Assembly: GCF_900143055.1 (NCBI RefSeq)
Contig: NZ_FRCW01000002.1
Coordinates: 248,001-312,000, forward strand
Length of the DNA: 64,000 nt
Reading direction: 5' to 3'
Source: Fibrobacter sp. UWR3
GTDB lineage: Bacteria; Fibrobacterota; Fibrobacteria; Fibrobacterales; Fibrobacteraceae
Program-made: the position numbers and the translations under genes
Notes under the pieces: generated by a model
Told to the model about the DNA's origin: nothing
What the model saw: only the letters and a program-made list of their open reading frames with translations
The model's database searches: none
Part shown: positions 188 through 31,910 of the stretch, piece after piece
Layout of the letters: each line of letters begins with the position of its first letter
Numbering within the stretch: the stretch's first letter is position 1

Positions 188-631
188 ATGAAAAAATGCC
201 GTCGTAAAAAACACTCTCCCATGAACCGTTCGCAAATGATGCAGGCGGTCCATTCGGAAGACACCCGGCCCGAACTGCTTGTGCGGCGGGCACTGTTTAA
301 GGCGGGACTGCGTTACAGGCTGCACAAGCACGATTTGCCCGGCTCGCCAGACCTGTTTATCCTCAAATACGGCGTGGTTGTATTTATAAACGGCTGCTTC
401 TGGCACCAGCACGGCTGCAAGTTCACGAGCCGCCCCAAAAGCAACCCTGAATTCTGGAATGAAAAGTTCACGAACAATATGGTGCGCGACATCAAGACGA
501 ACTGGAAACTTTCGCTACAAGGCTACCGCGTTGCAACCATTTGGGAATGTTCCGTCAAGAACGATTTCGACCGCACTATTGAACGCCTCAAGGCCTTTAT
601 TGCAAGCGATGAAGAAAGCATAGAGATTTGA
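188..631 (+). CDS. vsr: Very short patch repair (Vsr) endonuclease
   Basis: 147 residues. Vsr enzymes nick DNA 5' of T:G mismatches that arise by deamination of 5-methylcytosine. The family signature is clear: RSxxMxAVxSxDTRPE at the N-terminus, then GSPDLFI and FINGCFWHQHGC, giving the metal-binding Asp and the His/Cys zinc cluster. No cytosine methyltransferase is seen in the window, so the gene is an orphan here. A TTGAAT/TATCTT promoter-like pair lies at 144-171. The ATG at 188 overlaps the stop of a four-codon mini-ORF starting at 177. An internal ATG at 221 (MNRSQM) is nearer the usual Vsr start, and neither ATG has a clear ribosome binding site. Confidence 0.9.
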   Translation: MKKCRRKKHSPMNRSQMMQAVHSEDTRPELLVRRALFKAGLRYRLHKHDLPGSPDLFILKYGVVVFINGCFWHQHGCKFTSRPKSNPEFWNEKFTNNMVRDIKTNWKLSLQGYRVATIWECSVKNDFDRTIERLKAFIASDEESIEI

Positions 632-2123: not shown

Positions 2124-2459
2124 CTACAACCGGAACAATTTGGCAACGAGGATGTCCTGAAGATTCCTTCTGCTGTCAATGACGGCATGGACAACAACAT
2201 TCTCTGCCTGAATTTCGTACACAATACGATAGAGCCCCTGAATTATTTCCCGATACAGCTCAATCCCCTGGTCATATAATTCGGGAACAACTCTGCCGCT
2301 TAAGGGGAAATGCGACAGAGACAAAATATTGTGTTCAAATTGTGCGATGACAGATTCTACATAGGACGAATTTAAGGCTTTGTAGTAGTCTACAATCTCT
2401 CTCAAATCGTCTTCGGCAGACTTCGATATGATTACATTGTAGACCTTACTTTTTCGCAT
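2124..2459 (-). CDS. ParE/RelE-superfamily toxin
   Basis: 111 residues. The sequence pattern is that of the RelE/ParE fold: SAEDDLREIVDYY near the N-terminus, a central LxxFPxSGR segment, and a C-terminal YRIVYEI...VVHAVIDSRRN strand with the terminal Arg typical of this group. Such toxins inhibit gyrase (ParE) or cleave ribosome-bound mRNA (RelE); which applies here cannot be decided. The start overlaps the end of the antitoxin gene by 14 nt, the usual coupling of type II modules. Confidence 0.85.
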   Translation of the reverse strand: MRKSKVYNVIISKSAEDDLREIVDYYKALNSSYVESVIAQFEHNILSLSHFPLSGRVVPELYDQGIELYREIIQGLYRIVYEIQAENVVVHAVIDSRRNLQDILVAKLFRL

Positions 2460-2724
2460 TGAGCCCCTTCCTCAATTCCTGGAAAACCTGCTTAGCGGGC
2501 TTTGCGCGACCTGCCTGAACGTCCCTTTCCGATATCTGCATCAGTCTCAATAAAGCGAAGGCGTCCTGCATTTTCTGGTACGAGTCAACATCGAGAATGA
2601 CCCCGCGGGCCTCCCCGTTTTGCGTCACGATATAGGGAGTATGCGATTCGTTCACCGAATCTAGAACCTTGGCGGCATTCGCCTTGATGTACGAAATCGG
2701 CTTGATGTTCTTAAGGGAGGCCAT
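2446..2724 (-). CDS. Phd/YefM-type antitoxin
   Basis: 92 residues. The N-terminal half matches the Phd/YefM DNA-binding fold: IKPISYIKANAAKVLDSV, then TPYIVTQNGEARGVILDVDSYQ. The C-terminal half is charged and probably binds and neutralises the toxin encoded downstream. The order antitoxin-toxin with overlapping ends is standard. Such pairs usually repress their own promoter, which should lie in 2725-2790. Confidence 0.88.
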   Translation of the reverse strand: MASLKNIKPISYIKANAAKVLDSVNESHTPYIVTQNGEARGVILDVDSYQKMQDAFALLRLMQISERDVQAGRAKPAKQVFQELRKGLNAKK

Positions 2725-5253: not shown

Positions 5254-5289
5254 CCCTCTCGCATATTTATATATATTTTCCACTGACAT

Positions 5290-5490
5290 AGCTCCGTACC
5301 GAATGGTGCGGAGCGACCAGAATTTTTGAGATTCGTCTCTTATTCTTGGACCTGAAACTACCACTTTCTAATGACCTAAGAATAAGACGAACGCTCACGT
5401 CCCATCTGGGGCGTGGGTCGTTTGTGCTTATTAGGTCAAGGGTGTGGTAGCCCGCAGGTTCGATAAGCGCTGCGACTCCACGCCTTTTTT
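5290..5490 (+). promoter_or_regulatory. Candidate RNA attenuator upstream of the restriction-modification gene
   Basis: Hairpin 1 is GCTCCGTACC/GGTGCGGAGC (5291-5314). Hairpin 2 pairs 5332-5347 with 5378-5391 (14 bp, one bulge). A competing helix pairs CTACCAC (5358-5364) with GTGGTAG (5444-5450), TGACCTAA (5372-5379) with TTAGGTCA (5431-5438), and TAAG with CTTA. The competing helix encloses a strong hairpin at 5388-5426. The 3' hairpin GGTGTGG (5441-5447)/CCACGCC (5478-5484), with an inner CGCAG/CTGCG and six T residues, is an intrinsic terminator. Positions 5444-5450 cannot be in both structures, so this looks like a terminator/antiterminator switch. The ligand or trigger is unknown. Confidence 0.55.
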
Positions 5491-5556
5491 GTTTTGGCTA
5501 AAGTTTTTGTGCTCCTGAGTAAGAGTCGAATCAGACGCTTGCATAAGGAGCCTAGG

Positions 5557-7830
5557 ATGGCAAAGAAAAAGAGTGAAACGAAAACAGAAAACCTGTTCCG
5601 TAGTTTTTATGGAACGAATACATTCTTGGAAAAATCAGCCATTCCTGATTATTATGGTTTTACATCTAAAAGAAAAACTGGTGAAAAAGGATATCCCGAC
5701 TTCTTTAAAGATTGCGACAAATATTGCATAATAGTTGAAGCCAAAGCCGACAATTTCAAATTGGCCATTGACGAAGTTAAGTGGTACATGGAGCACAACT
5801 TAATTGAAGGGAAAGATATTATTGGCATTGCAATATCAGGTCAAGCCAAAGATAGTATTCAGATAAAGTATTTTTGCAGACTTTTAAAGGATGATGTTTT
5901 ATCCCAAATAGACGATTTAACAGATGCAGAAGCACTACTCTCTTTAAACAATATTGAAAAAATTTACACCCGAAAGAAATATGGAGACACAATATCAGAC
6001 GAAGCTTTAACCACATTTTTATCTGAATTGAATAAAAAATTTCACGACAAAAGCAGAGTCAGAGACACAAACAGAAGCTTATTCTTTTCAGGATTAATGA
6101 TAGCCCTAAACGACAAGACTTTTCAAAAAACATATAGGAGTATAGAAAAGCCAGAATCTGGCATTGAGGCAGACCGCTTAAACGAAGCTATTTTAACGGC
6201 AATTACAAATCAATTGGAAGATAAAGCCAATAGTTTTAGCAAAAAAATCGTATGGAAAGACTGTTTCGCATTTATAAGAACCATCAGTTTTCCGTTGATT
6301 GAATACAAAAAGATTATCAAAGATATAGAAGAAAAAATTTTCATTCCTTTTAAGCACGAAGAAAAATATGACATTCTAGGGAAAGCCTATAAAATCTTTT
6401 TATCTAGGGCAGGAAAAATCGAAAACAAAAATATCATTTTAACACCTGACCACATAAAAGACTTGATGGTGAAATTAGCAAACCTATCTGTCGATGATGT
6501 TGTTTTGGATACATGCACTGGTCCTGGAGGTTTTCTAATGTTCGCATTAGAAAGACTGGTAAGTCTCGCAAATGGGGACGACGCAACAATTGAACACATA
6601 ACCAATCATCAATTAATTGGCTTTGAAATAGACCCTGTACTTTATTCTCTTGCCTGTTCCAACATGTTCTTGCACGGTGATGGCAGAAGCAATATGATAC
6701 ATAGAAGCAGTTTGCTTGATGTAGATAATCTTGTAGAAGACGATGGGCAAAAACTTCTTGATCATATTCACAGATTAAAACCGAGAAAATGCATAATCAA
6801 CCCTCCTTACGAAAATAACCTTGCCTTTGAATTTGTTTGGTCTGCTATTGACTATTTAGAGCCGGATGGTGAATTAATTGTCATTATGCCATCAATCACT
6901 TTGGAACAAAATCAAGAAAAGACCTCTAAAAGAAAACAGCTAAAAAGCACTGAGAATCTACTGAAAAAAGCAACGTTAAACTTTGAAATTAAGATGCCTC
7001 CAACACTTTTTAGAGAACAAGGAAGGACGATTCAAACTTCTATTTTTGGATTCACAAAAAAACCGCATAACCAAGACAAGAATGTTCTCTTTTACAATCT
7101 CAAAGACGACGGCTTGGAGAGTATTCAACATAAAGGACGTGTAGATACAAAAAAACAATGGCCACAAAAAGAAGAAGAAATTTTTGATTGCGTTTTAAAT
7201 GGAACCGAAATATCAGGAAAATCATTCAAACGAAAAATATTTGCCAAGGGTAAACTGGTTTTACAAAATAAACAAAAAACTCAAAAAGGTTTTGTTCCCA
7301 TAGGTGATTTATTTAATGTAGCCAAAGACCCTCAACTAATACAATCAACAAAAAATACTCCTGGAAAAATACCATTCATTACAGCCGCAATCGAATGGAA
7401 AACTCACAATAAAGCATCTTTCAAAAATACTGAAGCTTTAGTATATGTTGTTGGTGCAGAAGGATCTCTTGGCAACTGCCATTACATCAATGGTGATTTT
7501 ACAGCAAGTTCTCTTTGCCTTGTTCTGACAGAAAAAGATAAAGAACAATATCCAGTGAATCTTAAGTTCTATCAGCTCTACTTTGAAAGCATCAAGCAAG
7601 AAGTTCGCAAAGGTCTCAATGGCTGGAAAAAGGGAAAATCAAAGCAATCGATAAGTCAATCACGATTTGAAACATTCGAAATCCCGTATGTTGATATCAA
7701 TAAACAGAATCAGGTTGTGAAAAGGGTTGAGAAAATAAAGAAGGATATGGAAGAAATAGAAAAAAAGAAAATCGAGTTGGAAAAGCAGTTAAATCAGCTT
7801 GTTGTTGACAGCACAGAAACCTTGAATTGA
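5557..7830 (+). CDS. Single-chain restriction-modification enzyme (type IIG / fused R-M-S)
   Basis: 757 residues. The ATG at 5557 is chosen because AAGGAG at 5545-5550 precedes it; an upstream in-frame start at 5494 adds 21 unlikely residues. Domains in order: an N-terminal PD-(D/E)XK nuclease (PDFF about 47-50, VEAKAD about 60-65); a helical region; a gamma-class N6-adenine methyltransferase with motif I DTCTGPGGF (about 318-326) and motif IV NPPY (about 415-418); and an HsdS-like target-recognition region (about 575-745) ending in a charged coiled coil. One polypeptide would therefore recognise, methylate and cleave. The gene is strongly AT-rich compared with the backbone, suggesting transfer. 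The candidate RNA switch at 5290-5490 lies directly upstream. Confidence 0.85.
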   Translation: MAKKKSETKTENLFRSFYGTNTFLEKSAIPDYYGFTSKRKTGEKGYPDFFKDCDKYCIIVEAKADNFKLAIDEVKWYMEHNLIEGKDIIGIAISGQAKDSIQIKYFCRLLKDDVLSQIDDLTDAEALLSLNNIEKIYTRKKYGDTISDEALTTFLSELNKKFHDKSRVRDTNRSLFFSGLMIALNDKTFQKTYRSIEKPESGIEADRLNEAILTAITNQLEDKANSFSKKIVWKDCFAFIRTISFPLIEYKKIIKDIEEKIFIPFKHEEKYDILGKAYKIFLSRAGKIENKNIILTPDHIKDLMVKLANLSVDDVVLDTCTGPGGFLMFALERLVSLANGDDATIEHITNHQLIGFEIDPVLYSLACSNMFLHGDGRSNMIHRSSLLDVDNLVEDDGQKLLDHIHRLKPRKCIINPPYENNLAFEFVWSAIDYLEPDGELIVIMPSITLEQNQEKTSKRKQLKSTENLLKKATLNFEIKMPPTLFREQGRTIQTSIFGFTKKPHNQDKNVLFYNLKDDGLESIQHKGRVDTKKQWPQKEEEIFDCVLNGTEISGKSFKRKIFAKGKLVLQNKQKTQKGFVPIGDLFNVAKDPQLIQSTKNTPGKIPFITAAIEWKTHNKASFKNTEALVYVVGAEGSLGNCHYINGDFTASSLCLVLTEKDKEQYPVNLKFYQLYFESIKQEVRKGLNGWKKGKSKQSISQSRFETFEIPYVDINKQNQVVKRVEKIKKDMEEIEKKKIELEKQLNQLVVDSTETLN

Positions 7831-9732: not shown

Positions 9733-12700
9733 TCACGAATGCTCATTTTCATCTTTTACAGGACTGATTCTTTCACCTTCAATTTTAAAGCCATCGCCAA
9801 TTTGTCTAAGTGCTTTTTCCATACATTCATTAACATTCGAACCTAGACGATTAATACCTAGTAGCTTTGCTATGGCTTGGAATAACGACTTCTTATCTAC
9901 AGATCCATCCTGTTTTATCAATGTCCGCATACCATCTGCAAGTTCCTGAGGATGAATTTCTTCAATCTTTCTTTCATCTCCAGGGATTCGAAACGGGATC
10001 TTTTCAATATTATCTAACCATATAAAGCCTTTCCTACGAAGGATTCCTTCTCGATTACAAAAAAGCATATCTTCGTCAAATTTTGCATTAATCTTTTCTG
10101 TAACCCGAGTTTGTCCATAGCAAGGGAAAACTATTCTTTTCAAGAAAGACTCCTCAGAAACTGCTATTTCCTTTTCCAAAACCTTACGAACACACTTTTG
10201 GAAGGATCCCCGATTCACCCCACTGCGAAAAATTTTTTCAACATCCGATTTCTCATACTTAGGAAAGCTGGACTCAGGACTAAAATTAGCATCAACTTCT
10301 ATTTCTGTTTCATCGGAAACAACTGTAGGAGATTCTTCAATTTTTGTCTTAGGTTTACTTTCTGCGGCAGCTACAGCATCAAGCAGCCTTCGCTTTTCGG
10401 TCTTATTATTTTTAAACCAATCTGTAGACCAAACTCGATAGAAATTCCATCCCATACGTTCTAGGATTTCCTGACGAAGTCTATCTCTATCTCTGGCATT
10501 TTTCGAAGAATGATAGGCAGCTCCATCACATTCCACGGCAAGGAAATAATCAGAACTATTTGGTTTCCTTATACCCATGTCAATTCTAAATCCAGAACAA
10601 CCAACCTGAGTGTCAACATCATAGTGATTGTCTCGTAAAAATTGGCACACTTCTTCTTCAAAGACAGAATCAAACTGATCATCTGATTTAACATCCGTAA
10701 CCTTATCAAGGGCAGCAACACCGCGTTCAGCATAATCAAGATATTTTCCCAAAAGAATAGCTCCTTCAGCAGAAGTTCTCTTTGGATCGATATCACAGCC
10801 GTGAATTGAGGCGACCACCTGCAAATTGTATTTTGCACGAGTGACAGCAACATTCAGACGTCTTTCTCCACCAGCCTTATTCAAAGGACCAAAATTATGC
10901 ATTAAGCGATTCGTATCATCCTTAGCATAGGCAATACTAAAAATGATGGTATCTCGTTCATCACCCTGAACCGTCTCAAGATTTTTTACAAAAAAAGGTT
11001 CGATTACGTCTTTTTTGAAGAAAAATTCATATTCGGGATGTTTCTGGCGCTCTTCATAAAGCAACGTATCAATCAAATCCTGCTGAGCAACACTAAAAGC
11101 AACAACACCTAAACTACGCTTTGGATATTGCTTGATATTTTCAAAGATAAGGTTTACGATGTACTTGGCCTCATTCTCATTTTGTCGACTTTTATGACTG
11201 AATATACCATTCTCGCAGAAATAATAGTCAACACCTACCCAACGTTTGTCCGTTTCCGATGAAGGGAACGTTATCAAACGATCATTATAGATATATCTGT
11301 TAGAAAAGGAAATCAATTGTTCAGAGCGACTACGATAATGCCACATTAGATAAAGCTGATCAAAACACGTTGAACATACATCAAGTATGGATTCATAATC
11401 GTTAACATTGTCATAATCGTCGTCATCACTATCTGATTCAGTACTGGAATTAAAGAAATTGCTGGGGGGCATCTGTTTGGAGTCTCCAACAACAATTACT
11501 TGCTTTCCACGATAAATTGCTCCAATAGCATCTTCAGGGAAAACTTGAGACGCTTCATCAAAAATAACTGTATCAAACGATACAGCCTTTGTACTTAAGA
11601 AGGCGCTTACACTAAGCGGCGACATCAAAAAGCAAGGCTTTAATTTTTGAATTGTTGATCCAATTCTATCAATCAAAACACGAACAGGCATTTGTTTTCT
11701 TTTCTTTTCACCTTCATGACGAAGAATAGCAACCTCACTGCCAGCAACAAGATTATTGGGGGACGGCCGTTGTTGAGCCAACGCTACACGGATAATAGTC
11801 CTATTAATCATTAAACTATTACGATCTTTTTCTGCAAAAATCTCAACTTCTTTATCTTGAGCAGACCTATTGAACCTGCTCAAAACAGGTGTTGAAGCAA
11901 GAATCTTGTCAATCCACAAGTCATAATATCGTCTATTAAAAGTAGATGCATAATCCTCGGGATTCAAGGATTTATCTATGCAATAATCAAGATATCCTCT
12001 CATCTGGTAGCGATCTATTTTTGCAAGCCATTCTTGGAATGCTTTCCAATTTTCTAACGAATCAATTTGACTTAGACATGATTCCAATTTTTTGCACAAC
12101 GGCTCAATTTCAAAGCCAACCAGATTGACCTTATTTTTATCAAAATCATCCGATATTTTTTCAATTAAAGTTTCATTCTTTTTTAAGAAACCTCCTGCAA
12201 AGGTAATAAGACCAGCAGCATCCTTAATCATTTGATTAAATGTATTCTGAGGATAGTTCAATATAGGCAAAGGAATTACTTTAACAGACTCAAGATATCC
12301 AGCTAATTCACTTAAGGATTCCTTAATATGCCCCCAATTAGAATCAATCCCTTTGTAAGACGGACCTAGTAGTATCTTTTTTTGGGAGCAAATCGCTTCA
12401 TATTCAAGCACCATTTGCTTATATGTAGATATCTTCTGAGTAATATCAAGAGCCCTTTCATAATTAACTTTTACACCAAGCTTGGCAACTAATTTTAGTT
12501 GCTTCATTGTCTTATGGTAATCAAGGCTTATAAGCCGTTTGATAAACGTATCATACAATTTAGAAAGACGATTATGAATATCATCTGAATCAATTTCTAA
12601 TGCCTTCTGTTCAAAGTCTGTAGTAATCTTTTGCCTAAGTTTAATTATTTCCTCAGATTTACTTGCCAGTTCATCAACAAAATTTCTTGTCGAAGATAAG

Positions 12701-14337
12701 ACTCCTTTATCAAAGAGTTCCGGAACAAGAACTTCATTGGAATTAAGAATGTTCAAGCAAGGAATACAGGCCTTTAGTGTTGAAATTGTTTTTCCTTTAG
12801 CTCCATAGACATCAACCAATTGCCTAAGGAGAGGGGTAATTTCCCTTAATGCATCAATCATAGACGCAAAGTCTACTTTAATAGCATTTTTCCCCTTAAT
12901 GGACGTGTCTTTAGCTAAATAGCCATTCCAGGGATTACATCTATAATCCTGACCAATAGTGGGAACATACGAGGGATACTTTTCCAACATATAGCTGATT
13001 TCTTTGCGACAGCTATCGTTCATGTATTCAAAATTATCGATATAGAAATCTATTTGCGGTGCGTTCTTGTAATGAGCGTGAGCACCGTACATCTGAAACA
13101 GTGATAAATTAACATATGGTCGGACACAATGCAACTCGTGTTCATACTGATCAAGAACCTTTTGCGATTGTGCTCTACGTATCATATCGTCAGTAACTTT
13201 GGATGCGCTAATTTTGGGCAAGTGCAGTGTTCTGCACAATTCTTCTATCACCTGCCTTTTGTTAGACTTATGACTATGAAGTTCTAGGCAGAAATCAGAA
13301 AGTCCAACCTGACGGAGTTTATCATACACAACATTCAATGCAGCTTGTTTTTCAGAAACAAATAACACTTTTTTGCCATCATACAGGCATTCCGCAATTA
13401 TGTTCGTAATGGTTTGGCTTTTACCAGTACCTGGAGGGCCCTGCAACACGAAACTTTTTCCAGACTTCGCCATCTTAATGGCTTTCATTTGGCTAGAGTC
13501 TGCGTCAACTACAGTGTGTAAATCACGTAGATCATCAAATTGACCTTCAGAATTTAAACCATCGGAATCATTATTTTCATCAGAAATGCCAAATAAGGCC
13601 TTAACATTTCTATTTTCGAGGATATCTTCTTCATGTTCCTTCAAATCATTATACATATTGATTTTTAGAAACGAGAACGTACTAATCCAGCAACCTCGAT
13701 CTAAAGTCCATTTTAATTTTTTTGCAATTTTTTCAGTTTCATCGAAGAATGATTCAACATTTTCGCCATCAAATTCAGGCAAATGCACATTGAATTCAGA
13801 ATTGAGTTTATGATCAAATGTGGGATTTACAACAACGTCATCGCCAGTTGCAGAAATAAAGAAGGGATCAACGGCCGATTCATTTTCAATAGAAATCGGA
13901 ACCAAAAGAAGAGGGGCCTTGTGAACTAATGTAGAAGAGTCCGCCTCCAGCCAACTCATAAAGCCTATCGCCATGTAGGCAATATTTACACCTGTTTCAT
14001 TGATTGAGGTATCGGCTTTTTTATCAATATTCTTAAGAATTCTAATAGAATTAGCATCCGTCTTATTATATGCCAAAATATTATTCTTTTTTAGCAAAGG
14101 TTTAAAAGACTCAATGAACTTTTCTCGAGACATGGTTTTCGGAAAATCTTTATCATTCACCTTTTTAGGATCAAAGACTTCCAGCCGAACACCTTTATCA
14201 AGCAACTCAAACAGTTCTGACCCAGAATGAGAAATAATTTCAAGAGAGCCTTTATTCTCTTTAAAATTAACCAGATTGTTGCGCAAACCAGTATCTAAAA
14301 GCTTTTTTGCCCAGTTTTCCAATTTCTCATTAAGCAT
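9733..14337 (-). CDS. DUF4011 - SF1 helicase - Vsr/DUF559-like nuclease - DUF3320 protein
   Basis: 1534 residues. The N-terminal DUF4011-like region begins NWAKKLLDTGLRNNLVNFK. The SF1 helicase core has Walker A GPPGTGKSQT (about 300-309), Walker B FDEASQ (about 927-932), VVGDSKQMPP, and the C-terminal motifs VVAFSVAQ, ETVQGDERD and NVAVTRAK. A long coiled insertion separates the two halves. It is followed by a Vsr/DUF559-type nuclease (FRIDMGI about 1250, VECDGAAYH about 1269, WNFYRVWSTDW) and a C-terminal domain matching DUF3320 (VEKIFRSGVNRGSFQKCVRKV). From memory, this architecture is found in phage-defence systems such as Hhe. The gene is AT-rich and sits among other defence genes. Confidence 0.85.
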   Translation of the reverse strand: MLNEKLENWAKKLLDTGLRNNLVNFKENKGSLEIISHSGSELFELLDKGVRLEVFDPKKVNDKDFPKTMSREKFIESFKPLLKKNNILAYNKTDANSIRILKNIDKKADTSINETGVNIAYMAIGFMSWLEADSSTLVHKAPLLLVPISIENESAVDPFFISATGDDVVVNPTFDHKLNSEFNVHLPEFDGENVESFFDETEKIAKKLKWTLDRGCWISTFSFLKINMYNDLKEHEEDILENRNVKALFGISDENNDSDGLNSEGQFDDLRDLHTVVDADSSQMKAIKMAKSGKSFVLQGPPGTGKSQTITNIIAECLYDGKKVLFVSEKQAALNVVYDKLRQVGLSDFCLELHSHKSNKRQVIEELCRTLHLPKISASKVTDDMIRRAQSQKVLDQYEHELHCVRPYVNLSLFQMYGAHAHYKNAPQIDFYIDNFEYMNDSCRKEISYMLEKYPSYVPTIGQDYRCNPWNGYLAKDTSIKGKNAIKVDFASMIDALREITPLLRQLVDVYGAKGKTISTLKACIPCLNILNSNEVLVPELFDKGVLSSTRNFVDELASKSEEIIKLRQKITTDFEQKALEIDSDDIHNRLSKLYDTFIKRLISLDYHKTMKQLKLVAKLGVKVNYERALDITQKISTYKQMVLEYEAICSQKKILLGPSYKGIDSNWGHIKESLSELAGYLESVKVIPLPILNYPQNTFNQMIKDAAGLITFAGGFLKKNETLIEKISDDFDKNKVNLVGFEIEPLCKKLESCLSQIDSLENWKAFQEWLAKIDRYQMRGYLDYCIDKSLNPEDYASTFNRRYYDLWIDKILASTPVLSRFNRSAQDKEVEIFAEKDRNSLMINRTIIRVALAQQRPSPNNLVAGSEVAILRHEGEKKRKQMPVRVLIDRIGSTIQKLKPCFLMSPLSVSAFLSTKAVSFDTVIFDEASQVFPEDAIGAIYRGKQVIVVGDSKQMPPSNFFNSSTESDSDDDDYDNVNDYESILDVCSTCFDQLYLMWHYRSRSEQLISFSNRYIYNDRLITFPSSETDKRWVGVDYYFCENGIFSHKSRQNENEAKYIVNLIFENIKQYPKRSLGVVAFSVAQQDLIDTLLYEERQKHPEYEFFFKKDVIEPFFVKNLETVQGDERDTIIFSIAYAKDDTNRLMHNFGPLNKAGGERRLNVAVTRAKYNLQVVASIHGCDIDPKRTSAEGAILLGKYLDYAERGVAALDKVTDVKSDDQFDSVFEEEVCQFLRDNHYDVDTQVGCSGFRIDMGIRKPNSSDYFLAVECDGAAYHSSKNARDRDRLRQEILERMGWNFYRVWSTDWFKNNKTEKRRLLDAVAAAESKPKTKIEESPTVVSDETEIEVDANFSPESSFPKYEKSDVEKIFRSGVNRGSFQKCVRKVLEKEIAVSEESFLKRIVFPCYGQTRVTEKINAKFDEDMLFCNREGILRRKGFIWLDNIEKIPFRIPGDERKIEEIHPQELADGMRTLIKQDGSVDKKSLFQAIAKLLGINRLGSNVNECMEKALRQIGDGFKIEGERISPVKDENEHS

Positions 14338-30479: not shown

Positions 30480-31910
30480 ATGAGAATTCTGGTCGTCAGT
30501 CCAGAAGCGGGCAATTGGCTAGTGCCCAGTCCGCTCACCACGGCAGTCAACCGACTTGCCGACGCATTCGCCCAGGCCGGGGTGAATGTTGTTACCTGTT
30601 CCCCGTTTTACAAGAACCATTTACAGAATCCGGAAAACTACAAGTGCGTTTTCCGCGGGACGGAGCGCCTTCAGGGCAAGGTTTACGAAATATGGAAATC
30701 CGAGACCGACCCGCTGCACACCTATATCTATAACGAGGAATACTTCGGCAGGCCCTACGTCTACGGCCCTCCTAAAGACGTCCCCTACGGCGACAACCAC
30801 CTCCGGTTCGCCTTCCTCGCTTCGGCCTGCCTGAGCTACGCCATCGAGTCCAAGACCGAATTCCAGGCAATTCTCGGGCACGAATGGGGCGGAGCACTCG
30901 CCGGAGCACTCGCGCACAACACCTACAAGGAAGAATTCGGCGACGTGCCGTTCTTCTTTACCGTCCACAACATCACCTACGACTTCCACGTGAGGTCCGA
31001 GGAAATCGAGAAGATCGGCCTCCCGCGCGAAAGGTACAACATGGACGGCTACGAGTTCTGGGGCAAGGTAAGCCTCCTCAAGGCGGGCATCTGCTTTGCC
31101 GAGAAGGTCCTGTTCCCCTCGCCCGGCTACCGCGACGCGATGCTCAACACGAACCTGCCCGGCGGACTCAGCGGCTTTTTGAACCACAACGCCGACAAGC
31201 TTATCGGCGTCCAGTTCGGTGTAAGTTACCGGGTATGGGACTTCAACCGCGAAGAACAGCTCCCCATCAAGGAAGCGAAACACAGGGCCAGGCTTGCGCT
31301 GCAAGAGCAACTCCACGTGGACTTCGGGTCGAAGTTGGTCCTCTACGTGCACCTCGACGAAGAAGCGGGCAACACCTCCGAGACGCTCGCGACAATCCTC
31401 GCCGACATCACGAAGCAGGACGTGTTTATCGTCGTGGGCATCTCGCCTGAAGACCCGGAATGGAATTTCTACCAGGACGTGTCGAAGCAGTACCCCGACA
31501 TCATGCACGTGATGCCCATCGACCGCGAGACCGAGAACGTCCGACCGCTCAAGGAGGTCCTCGCCGGTTCCGACATCCTGTTTGCCGCAAACCTGCGTGA
31601 ACCGTCCACATCGATTATCCTCAAGGCGCTCGCCTGCGGAACACTCCCGCTTACCGGATTCAATGTCGGCGTAGCCACAATGCTCGACGACTACACTCCC
31701 GAAACGGCAGGCCGCGCAAACGCATTCCTCGTCGAAGACGCGAACGCTCCGCACCAGATGCTGCGCAGGCTCAAGGACGCGTTCCACGTGTACAAGAACG
31801 AAGTCGCCGACTGGGACAAGGCGGTGGTGAACGCCTACAGCGGATTCCACTACGAGTGGGCACGCACAATTTCAAAATATTTGCTAATATTGGGCGAACT
31901 GGGGCTTTAG
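30480..31910 (+). CDS. Glycogen synthase (GT5) homologue lacking key catalytic residues
   Basis: 476 residues. The GT5 pattern is recognisable: MRILVVSPEAG at the N-terminus, FFTVHNITYDF, WGKVSLLKAGICFAEKVLFPSPGY, and REPSTSIILKALACGTLPL near the C-terminus, which keeps the catalytic-type Glu. The KTGGL glucosyl-donor motif is replaced by VPSPL, and the RxxxQKG motif is replaced by VHLDEEAG, so the Lys and Arg that bind ADP-glucose are missing. The GG after GTLPL is also changed. It may be a non-catalytic paralogue in glycogen metabolism. The stop codon lies inside the downstream tRNA gene. Confidence 0.75.
   Translation: MRILVVSPEAGNWLVPSPLTTAVNRLADAFAQAGVNVVTCSPFYKNHLQNPENYKCVFRGTERLQGKVYEIWKSETDPLHTYIYNEEYFGRPYVYGPPKDVPYGDNHLRFAFLASACLSYAIESKTEFQAILGHEWGGALAGALAHNTYKEEFGDVPFFFTVHNITYDFHVRSEEIEKIGLPRERYNMDGYEFWGKVSLLKAGICFAEKVLFPSPGYRDAMLNTNLPGGLSGFLNHNADKLIGVQFGVSYRVWDFNREEQLPIKEAKHRARLALQEQLHVDFGSKLVLYVHLDEEAGNTSETLATILADITKQDVFIVVGISPEDPEWNFYQDVSKQYPDIMHVMPIDRETENVRPLKEVLAGSDILFAANLREPSTSIILKALACGTLPLTGFNVGVATMLDDYTPETAGRANAFLVEDANAPHQMLRRLKDAFHVYKNEVADWDKAVVNAYSGFHYEWARTISKYLLILGELGL

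Follow-up and report, generated by a model that had tools for sequence, protein, structure and literature searches.

The leader of a restriction-modification gene in Fibrobacter sp. UWR3 is likely to attenuate transcription in cis, as one copy of an apparently new RNA family with many members per genome. The window analyzed is a stretch of 64,000 nt (contig NZ_FRCW01000002.1, positions 248,001 to 312,000), in which positions 5272–5490 comprise a promoter-like box and a leader of ~205 nt that can adopt two mutually exclusive folds and ends in an intrinsic terminator. The leader ends (T6) 67 nt before the start codon (ATG) of a restriction-modification gene of type IIG-like organization. The attenuator logic is well supported, since covariation is found in both competing folds, in Fibrobacter and again in Bacteroidota. 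Judging from the structure, termination would be conditional, and the element probably controls whether transcription proceeds into DNA-methyltransferase genes. The features of the locus, all on the plus strand, are listed below.

5272–5277 (+): promoter-like -10 box TATATT, at a TANNNT position conserved among copies
5286–5291 (+): conserved ACATAG
5291–5314 (+): 5′ hairpin P1 (5291–5300/5305–5314), variable in sequence with pairing mostly retained
5328–5339 (+): small conserved hairpin GAG...CTC, overlapping strand L (from core-pair counts and alignments)
5332–5347 (+): strand L, pairing with R in state A and partly with V1′/T in state B
5347–5354 (+): variable arm V1, complementary to V1′ (5455–5462)
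5358–5364 (+): CTACCAC, whose partner in state B is GTGGTAG (5444–5450)
5372–5378 (+): variable arm V2, complementary to V2′ (5432–5438)
5378–5392 (+): strand R, partnered by L in state A and by F in state B
5394–5417 (+): central hairpin C (5394–5403/5408–5417), near-invariant
5410–5420 (+): terminator left arm GGCGTGGGTCG, pairing with 5473–5484
5420–5432 (+): strand F, partnered by R in state B and by T in state A
5432–5462 (+): V2′, GTGGTAG and V1′, the right arms of the antiterminator (from covariation)
5463–5470 (+): strand T, ATAAGCGC, whose partner in state A is F (5424–5431)
5473–5490 (+): terminator right arm CGACTCCACGCC (5473–5484) followed by TTTTTT (5485–5490)
5545–5550 (+): Shine-Dalgarno-like AAGGAG (by sequence)
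5557–7830 (+): single-chain type IIG-like restriction-modification gene (N6_Mtase plus Methylase_S; Pfam, PADLOC), ATG at 5557

State A consists of L:R, F:T and the terminator, in which GGCGTGGGTCG is paired with CGACTCCACGCC. In state B, R:F encloses hairpin C, and is followed outward by V2:V2′, CTACCAC:GTGGTAG and V1:V1′, with L:T outermost. The two states share strands, and the right arm of hairpin C doubles as the left arm of the terminator. The minimum free energy of the leader is -96.1 kcal/mol (z = -7.6; none of 200 shuffles was as good), and the core of that fold is the long competing helix of state B.

Covariation was assessed in 62 Fibrobacter copies, with shuffled alignments and slid pairing partners as controls. 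For state A, 95% of cells are paired and 54 cells carry double changes, compared with 14 in shuffles, while for state B the corresponding values are 89%, 452 and 140, with double changes in 35 pairs; in both cases the shuffles ignore relatedness. When the partners are slid, pairing drops to ~36–54%. Among the helices of state A, L:R is 92.7% paired with double changes in 5 pairs, F:T (5424–5431/5463–5470), which extends the terminator stem, is 94.3% paired with double changes in 4 pairs, and the terminator itself (5410–5420/5473–5484) is 98.4% paired, five of its pairs being invariant and two compensated. In state B, all 8 pairs of V1:V1′ and all 7 pairs of V2:V2′ show double changes, and CTACCAC/GTGGTAG is swapped jointly in other copies, for example to CTGGTAAA/TTTACCAG. 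Hairpin C is near-invariant and retains a U-G pair in 62/62 copies, which fits a double duty, the G of that pair being matched to a C in the terminator. P1, at the 5′ end, has double changes in 8 of 10 pairs and ~81–87% of its cells paired in the Fibrobacter alignment, and the three core pairs of the GAG...CTC hairpin are formed in 31/31, 30/31 and 31/31 sequences.

A separate, Bacteroidota-only alignment of 38 copies, which is loose in the variable arms, gave the same picture: 45 double-change cells against 16 in shuffles for state A and 264 against 127 for state B. Its terminator stem is 91.8% paired with 5 double-changed pairs, the helix equivalent to CTACCAC:GTGGTAG is 92% paired with double changes in 6/6 pairs, and the GAG...CTC hairpin has a counterpart in GAGC...GCTC or AAGC...GCTT. 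The slid-partner controls and this independent alignment agree with the shuffle results. Two mutually exclusive helices are maintained by evolution both in Fibrobacter and in Bacteroidota. The GC-rich stem with its immediate U-tract lies 5′ of the gene and on the same strand. G-U pairs far outnumber A-C mismatches (27:0 in the terminator, 107:0 in F:T and 404:50 in state B, with G-U higher in every helix), which identifies the plus strand as the working RNA. At least two copies (L044 and L040:4619), in which part of state B is broken, look like left-right chimeras, as would be expected from recombination between tandem copies. In a further locus (G010:C3, L080:3993–4102), a type ISP gene lies behind an element that matches only model positions 74–183, the terminator half being apparently absent.

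These results bear on a preliminary description of the leader, made from the sequence of the window, which had proposed a three-state attenuator upstream of the restriction-modification gene. Its 14-bp hairpin (5332–5347/5378–5391, with a 2-nt bulge at 5339–5340) is borne out by 93% pairing and compensatory changes in the 62 homologues. The competing long helix, which reuses 5378–5391 and reaches 5450, is likewise recovered, both as the core of the minimum free energy fold and in the covariation of state B, and extends outward to 5347–5354/5455–5462. Covariation in both competing helices had been named as the check, and it came out positive in Fibrobacter and again in the Bacteroidota-only alignment. 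The intrinsic terminator, whose stem ends at 5484 before the T6 of 5485–5490, is confirmed, but its left arm had been misplaced: at 5441–5447 only 78% of cells are paired, compensatory changes are absent and shuffles do equally well, and the arm is broken in many copies because this segment covaries with CTACCAC instead. The correct left arm is 5410–5420. The attenuator reading thus survives in its essentials, the two folds being mutually exclusive and both covarying, with a different terminator arm; a third state is unneeded, as two folds account for the data. The leader is also not confined to this one gene: it belongs to a multi-copy family found before many unrelated methyltransferase genes in Fibrobacter and mostly before other genes in Bacteroidota.

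How the switch might operate can be outlined from the pairing scheme. A TANNNT box ends 5–9 nt upstream of ACATAG in 60 of 63 ACATAG-bearing copies (within 20 nt in 62 of 63), and transcription would start near 5284–5291 from this putative promoter within the element. P1, the L:R hairpin and central hairpin C would be the first structures to form on the nascent RNA. In the antiterminated state B, F would then take the place of L on R. Pairing of L, V1, V2 and the middle segment with their partners would yield one long hairpin, locking the left arm of the terminator inside hairpin C, so that polymerase would read into the gene. In the terminated state A, L:R would persist, F:T would form, and GGCGTGGGTCG:CGACTCCACGCC would arise just before U6 and stop transcription.

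Constrained folding of the window copy gave -93.8 kcal/mol for state B versus -85.3 kcal/mol for state A, and state B was the more stable in 51 of the 62 copies; the 11 that seemingly favor state A include divergent or chimeric copies, on which the alignment-projected pairs were probably forced wrongly. When truncated transcripts were folded, L:R formed first and converted to R:F after F and V2′ had emerged, so that L:R together with the central hairpin is likely a co-transcriptional intermediate. With state B usually more stable on paper, state A would be favored only if elongation were fast or something stabilized L:R. The simplest reading of these nearest-neighbor energies is that the relaxed state is antiterminated, and that termination would follow if L:R is held or if elongation outruns the exchange. 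The left arms of V1 and V2 occur in 41 and 36 distinct versions among the 62 copies. V1 pairs with its own partner in 91% of cases versus 52% with the arms of other copies, and V2 in 89% versus 53%. Two processes could produce such arms: drift constrained by the need to pair, or avoidance of cross-pairing among paralogous leaders.

The downstream gene (5557–7830) scores best in PADLOC as REase_MTase_IIG (E = 2e-42), and its N-terminus matched no nuclease model. It is adjoined by a gene on the minus strand (9733–14337) for a large DUF4011/AAA_11-AAA_12 helicase protein with a C-terminal REase_MTES_1575 domain, the two forming a defence-island-like neighborhood. Elsewhere in the window, a small gene pair (2124–2724, minus strand) resembles, from its sequence alone, a RelE/ParE-type toxin with its antitoxin, and the gene at 188–631 (plus strand) encodes a Vsr mismatch endonuclease (Pfam PF03852).

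The leader has 8 matches in its own 3.55-Mb genome. Among 61 genomes searched with it (60 relatives plus its own), it matched every one of the 37 in the genus and none of the 24 outside. A covariance model built from 31 diverse copies found the element in 40 of 41 Fibrobacter genomes (2–24 copies each), in 78 of 151 genomes across the phylum, mainly of the family Fibrobacteraceae. A sample of 119 genomes from the order Bacteroidales, to which a Prevotella genome belongs, included 36 with the element. Copies in single genomes number 33 in F. intestinalis, 41 in the Bacteroidia genome MS499-65, 2 in a Treponema and 1 in a Flavobacterium. Among the 41 copies of MS499-65 (G073) are similar leader-plus-gene pairs for membrane proteins (L284/L285 and L288/L289), possibly duplicated variable surface loci. 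Pattern matches in three viral contigs (L219–L221) were attributed to chance, the rest of the element being absent, as were those in a planctomycete (Planctomycetota, L112) and in Nitrosomonas (L137), which the profile did not recover. Rfam scans of the window and of eight non-Fibrobacter loci returned only tRNAs above threshold (in the window, at 31901), and in neither did the element exceed the gathering score of any family, including riboswitches, T-box and 6S. A literature search, covering sources other than the supplementary tables of large motif catalogues (PMC8040213), found no description of the RNA family; some copies may have been listed earlier, unnamed, in such catalogues.

Behind the Fibrobacter copies selected by BLAST, the next gene is on the same strand and usually starts 30–110 nt past the poly-T. 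It is a restriction or DNA-methylase gene after 49 of 66 such copies, a count that is not a rate since these loci were chosen by similarity to the window copy. These first genes include type I HsdM, EcoEI-like HsdR, type III Mod, type ISP, MmeI, EcoRI-type and N6/N4 methylases, and three first-gene proteins with no Pfam match bear the NPPY motif of adenine methylases. A less biased count was made in ten near-complete Fibrobacter genomes, by inspecting the 5 kb upstream, on the same strand, of genes of four unrelated methylase families. An element was present at 41 of the 87 methyltransferase genes, where 0.5 would be expected by chance (PF02384, 16/35; PF01555, 11/19; PF00145, 9/25; PF13651, 5/8), and none of the 87 had an element within 5 kb only in another arrangement. 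Seen from the other side, 45 of the 77 elements in these genomes precede a gene of the four families, and ~42% of copies do not. A long-loop variant, with ~70 nt inserted in the central hairpin, precedes C5 and EcoRI-type methylases and also secreted or membrane proteins; before the methylases it sometimes occurs as two tandem elements (before C5 genes, for example, at G003:C5:38969–39461 and G008:C7:215548–216045).

The neighbors in Bacteroidota are mostly surface or secreted proteins (CsgG, VWA, Fib_succ_major, BspA-type LRR) or small HTH proteins, making restriction-modification a major target of the family and not its sole one. They also include EcoRI-type methylases (L343 and, by sequence, L178 in Flavobacterium) and an N6_Mtase plus HSDR_N_2 protein (L346). 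As far as sampled, the strong association with restriction-modification is a feature of Fibrobacter. Five Bacteroidota copies (L314, L355, L361, L282 and L295) lie directly before tiny HTH proteins of 77–100 aa, whose genes start within ~20 nt of the U-tract. Several Fibrobacter genomes carry a small-ORF cassette (L052:2908–3579, L047, L053, L059, L067 and L040:2837–3499) with its own element on the 5′ side and a second element plus a restriction-modification gene on the 3′ side. Its first ORF is weakly DUF4417-like (E about 1e-4), and the cassette is a candidate accessory module for defence or control.

Other explanations of the element were weighed against attenuation in cis. A stand-alone, terminated small RNA of ~205 nt that acts in trans, with the linked gene using its own promoter, would account for the promoter-like box, the strong fold, the terminator and the many copies, and a constitutive terminator followed by a separate gene promoter would look similar. 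We consider it unlikely, since action in trans needs no same-strand site tens of nucleotides before the start codons of unrelated genes, and no methylase gene has the element within 5 kb in another arrangement alone; moreover, the terminator is built such that it has to open before the other covarying fold can arise, and the differences in V1 and V2 between copies argue against one shared trans target. Still less probable is that the element is mobile DNA or a recombination site, a palindrome of the MITE or attC kind, which transports defence-gene cassettes and whose RNA fold is incidental. The repeats are indeed dispersed, some pairs ~1.8 kb apart flank the small-ORF cassette (L047, L052, L053 and L059), and the chimeric copies suggest recombination between copies. 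However, the G-U bias is confined to one strand where symmetry would be expected, the second covarying fold is not palindromic, the U-tract and promoter box are conserved, and the orientation of the element and its distance from the start codon are fixed. In addition, the element has spread to unrelated genes in other phyla, and blastn searches of phage and plasmid collections returned no similarity to it.

The remaining alternatives concern the way in which an attenuator might be controlled. Ribosome stalling on a leader peptide, or a switch controlled by translation, is very improbable: an ATG occurs within the first 120 nt of 47 of the 62 copies, usually in the P1 loop, but no conserved ORF was found, 15 copies have no ATG there, P1 is replaced by unrelated, ATG-less hairpins in other copies, and the Shine-Dalgarno sequence of the gene sits 3′ of the switch. 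A strict riboswitch that binds a metabolite or protein would be a sub-case of the attenuator, with a pocket made up of the GAG hairpin, hairpin C and the R/F strands and with phage attack or DNA-methylation stress as examples of a signal. We regard this as possible but less likely than not. The core is highly conserved across phyla, there are several copies per genome, and tandem copies precede some C5 and EcoRI-type methylases. Against this, strands that must pair in both folds account for most of the invariance, nothing resembling an unpaired aptamer core stands out, there is no known class of ligand, and the Bacteroidota targets are a mixed set.

The element appears to work like an attenuator, a known kind of control; what is new, to the extent that this could be checked, is how the switch is built, the set of methylase genes that it heads throughout the genus, and how widely it has spread. 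With attenuators that use intrinsic terminators (trp-type, or those with protein- or RNA-controlled antiterminators) it shares mutually exclusive antiterminator and terminator helices and a stem with U-tract before the gene. It differs from them in its four-strand swap, in the closing of the antiterminator by L:T, in its hypervariable, self-complementary arms, in having no conserved leader peptide and in being common to many unrelated genes per genome. Riboswitches for c-di-GMP also occur in many copies per genome upstream of heterogeneous genes, sometimes in tandem, and the element resembles them in all three respects; unlike them, it has no known ligand or Rfam aptamer match, and its conservation stems mostly from alternative pairing. 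P1 and the start of the leader resemble uup RNA (RF03060) over a 33-nt match (window 5282–5314; 18.3 bits, E = 0.3), but the score is half of the gathering value of 36.8 and covers the 5′ hairpin only, so the element is not a member. Partial matches elsewhere in the genus also cover mainly the 5′ part of the element, and together with the sub-threshold uup match they indicate that P1 may be a reusable 5′-UTR module. Known control of restriction-modification relies on C proteins, methylase autorepressors, antisense RNA (Eco29kI and others) and hairpins that limit translation starts (2025 review, PMC12707154), as well as on the RptR repressor (PMC12255303); the words 'attenuat...' and 'riboswitch' are both absent from that review. 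These controls act on the same class of target and likely serve the same purpose of restraining expression, but they are system-specific, whereas here a single family of RNA leaders is shared by systems of types I, II, IIG, III and ISP throughout a genus.

The RNA family is common yet absent from Rfam. In one genus it stands before roughly half of all DNA-methyltransferase genes, and in Bacteroidales its relatives are found ahead of accessory genes of other kinds. The ways in which cells coordinate numerous restriction-modification systems, and keep a newly acquired one safe, are usually addressed system by system; if the switch works as its structure suggests, unrelated immunity genes would share one RNA-level control. 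The leader could also serve as bait in looking for more genes with a possible role in defence, the DUF4417-like cassette being one example. More speculatively, a single RNA-switch family spanning Fibrobacterota, Bacteroidota and Spirochaetota might sense one common intracellular cue and, in Fibrobacter, switch a regulon of unrelated restriction-modification systems together, in which case DNA-based immunity would be under RNA control throughout the genus.
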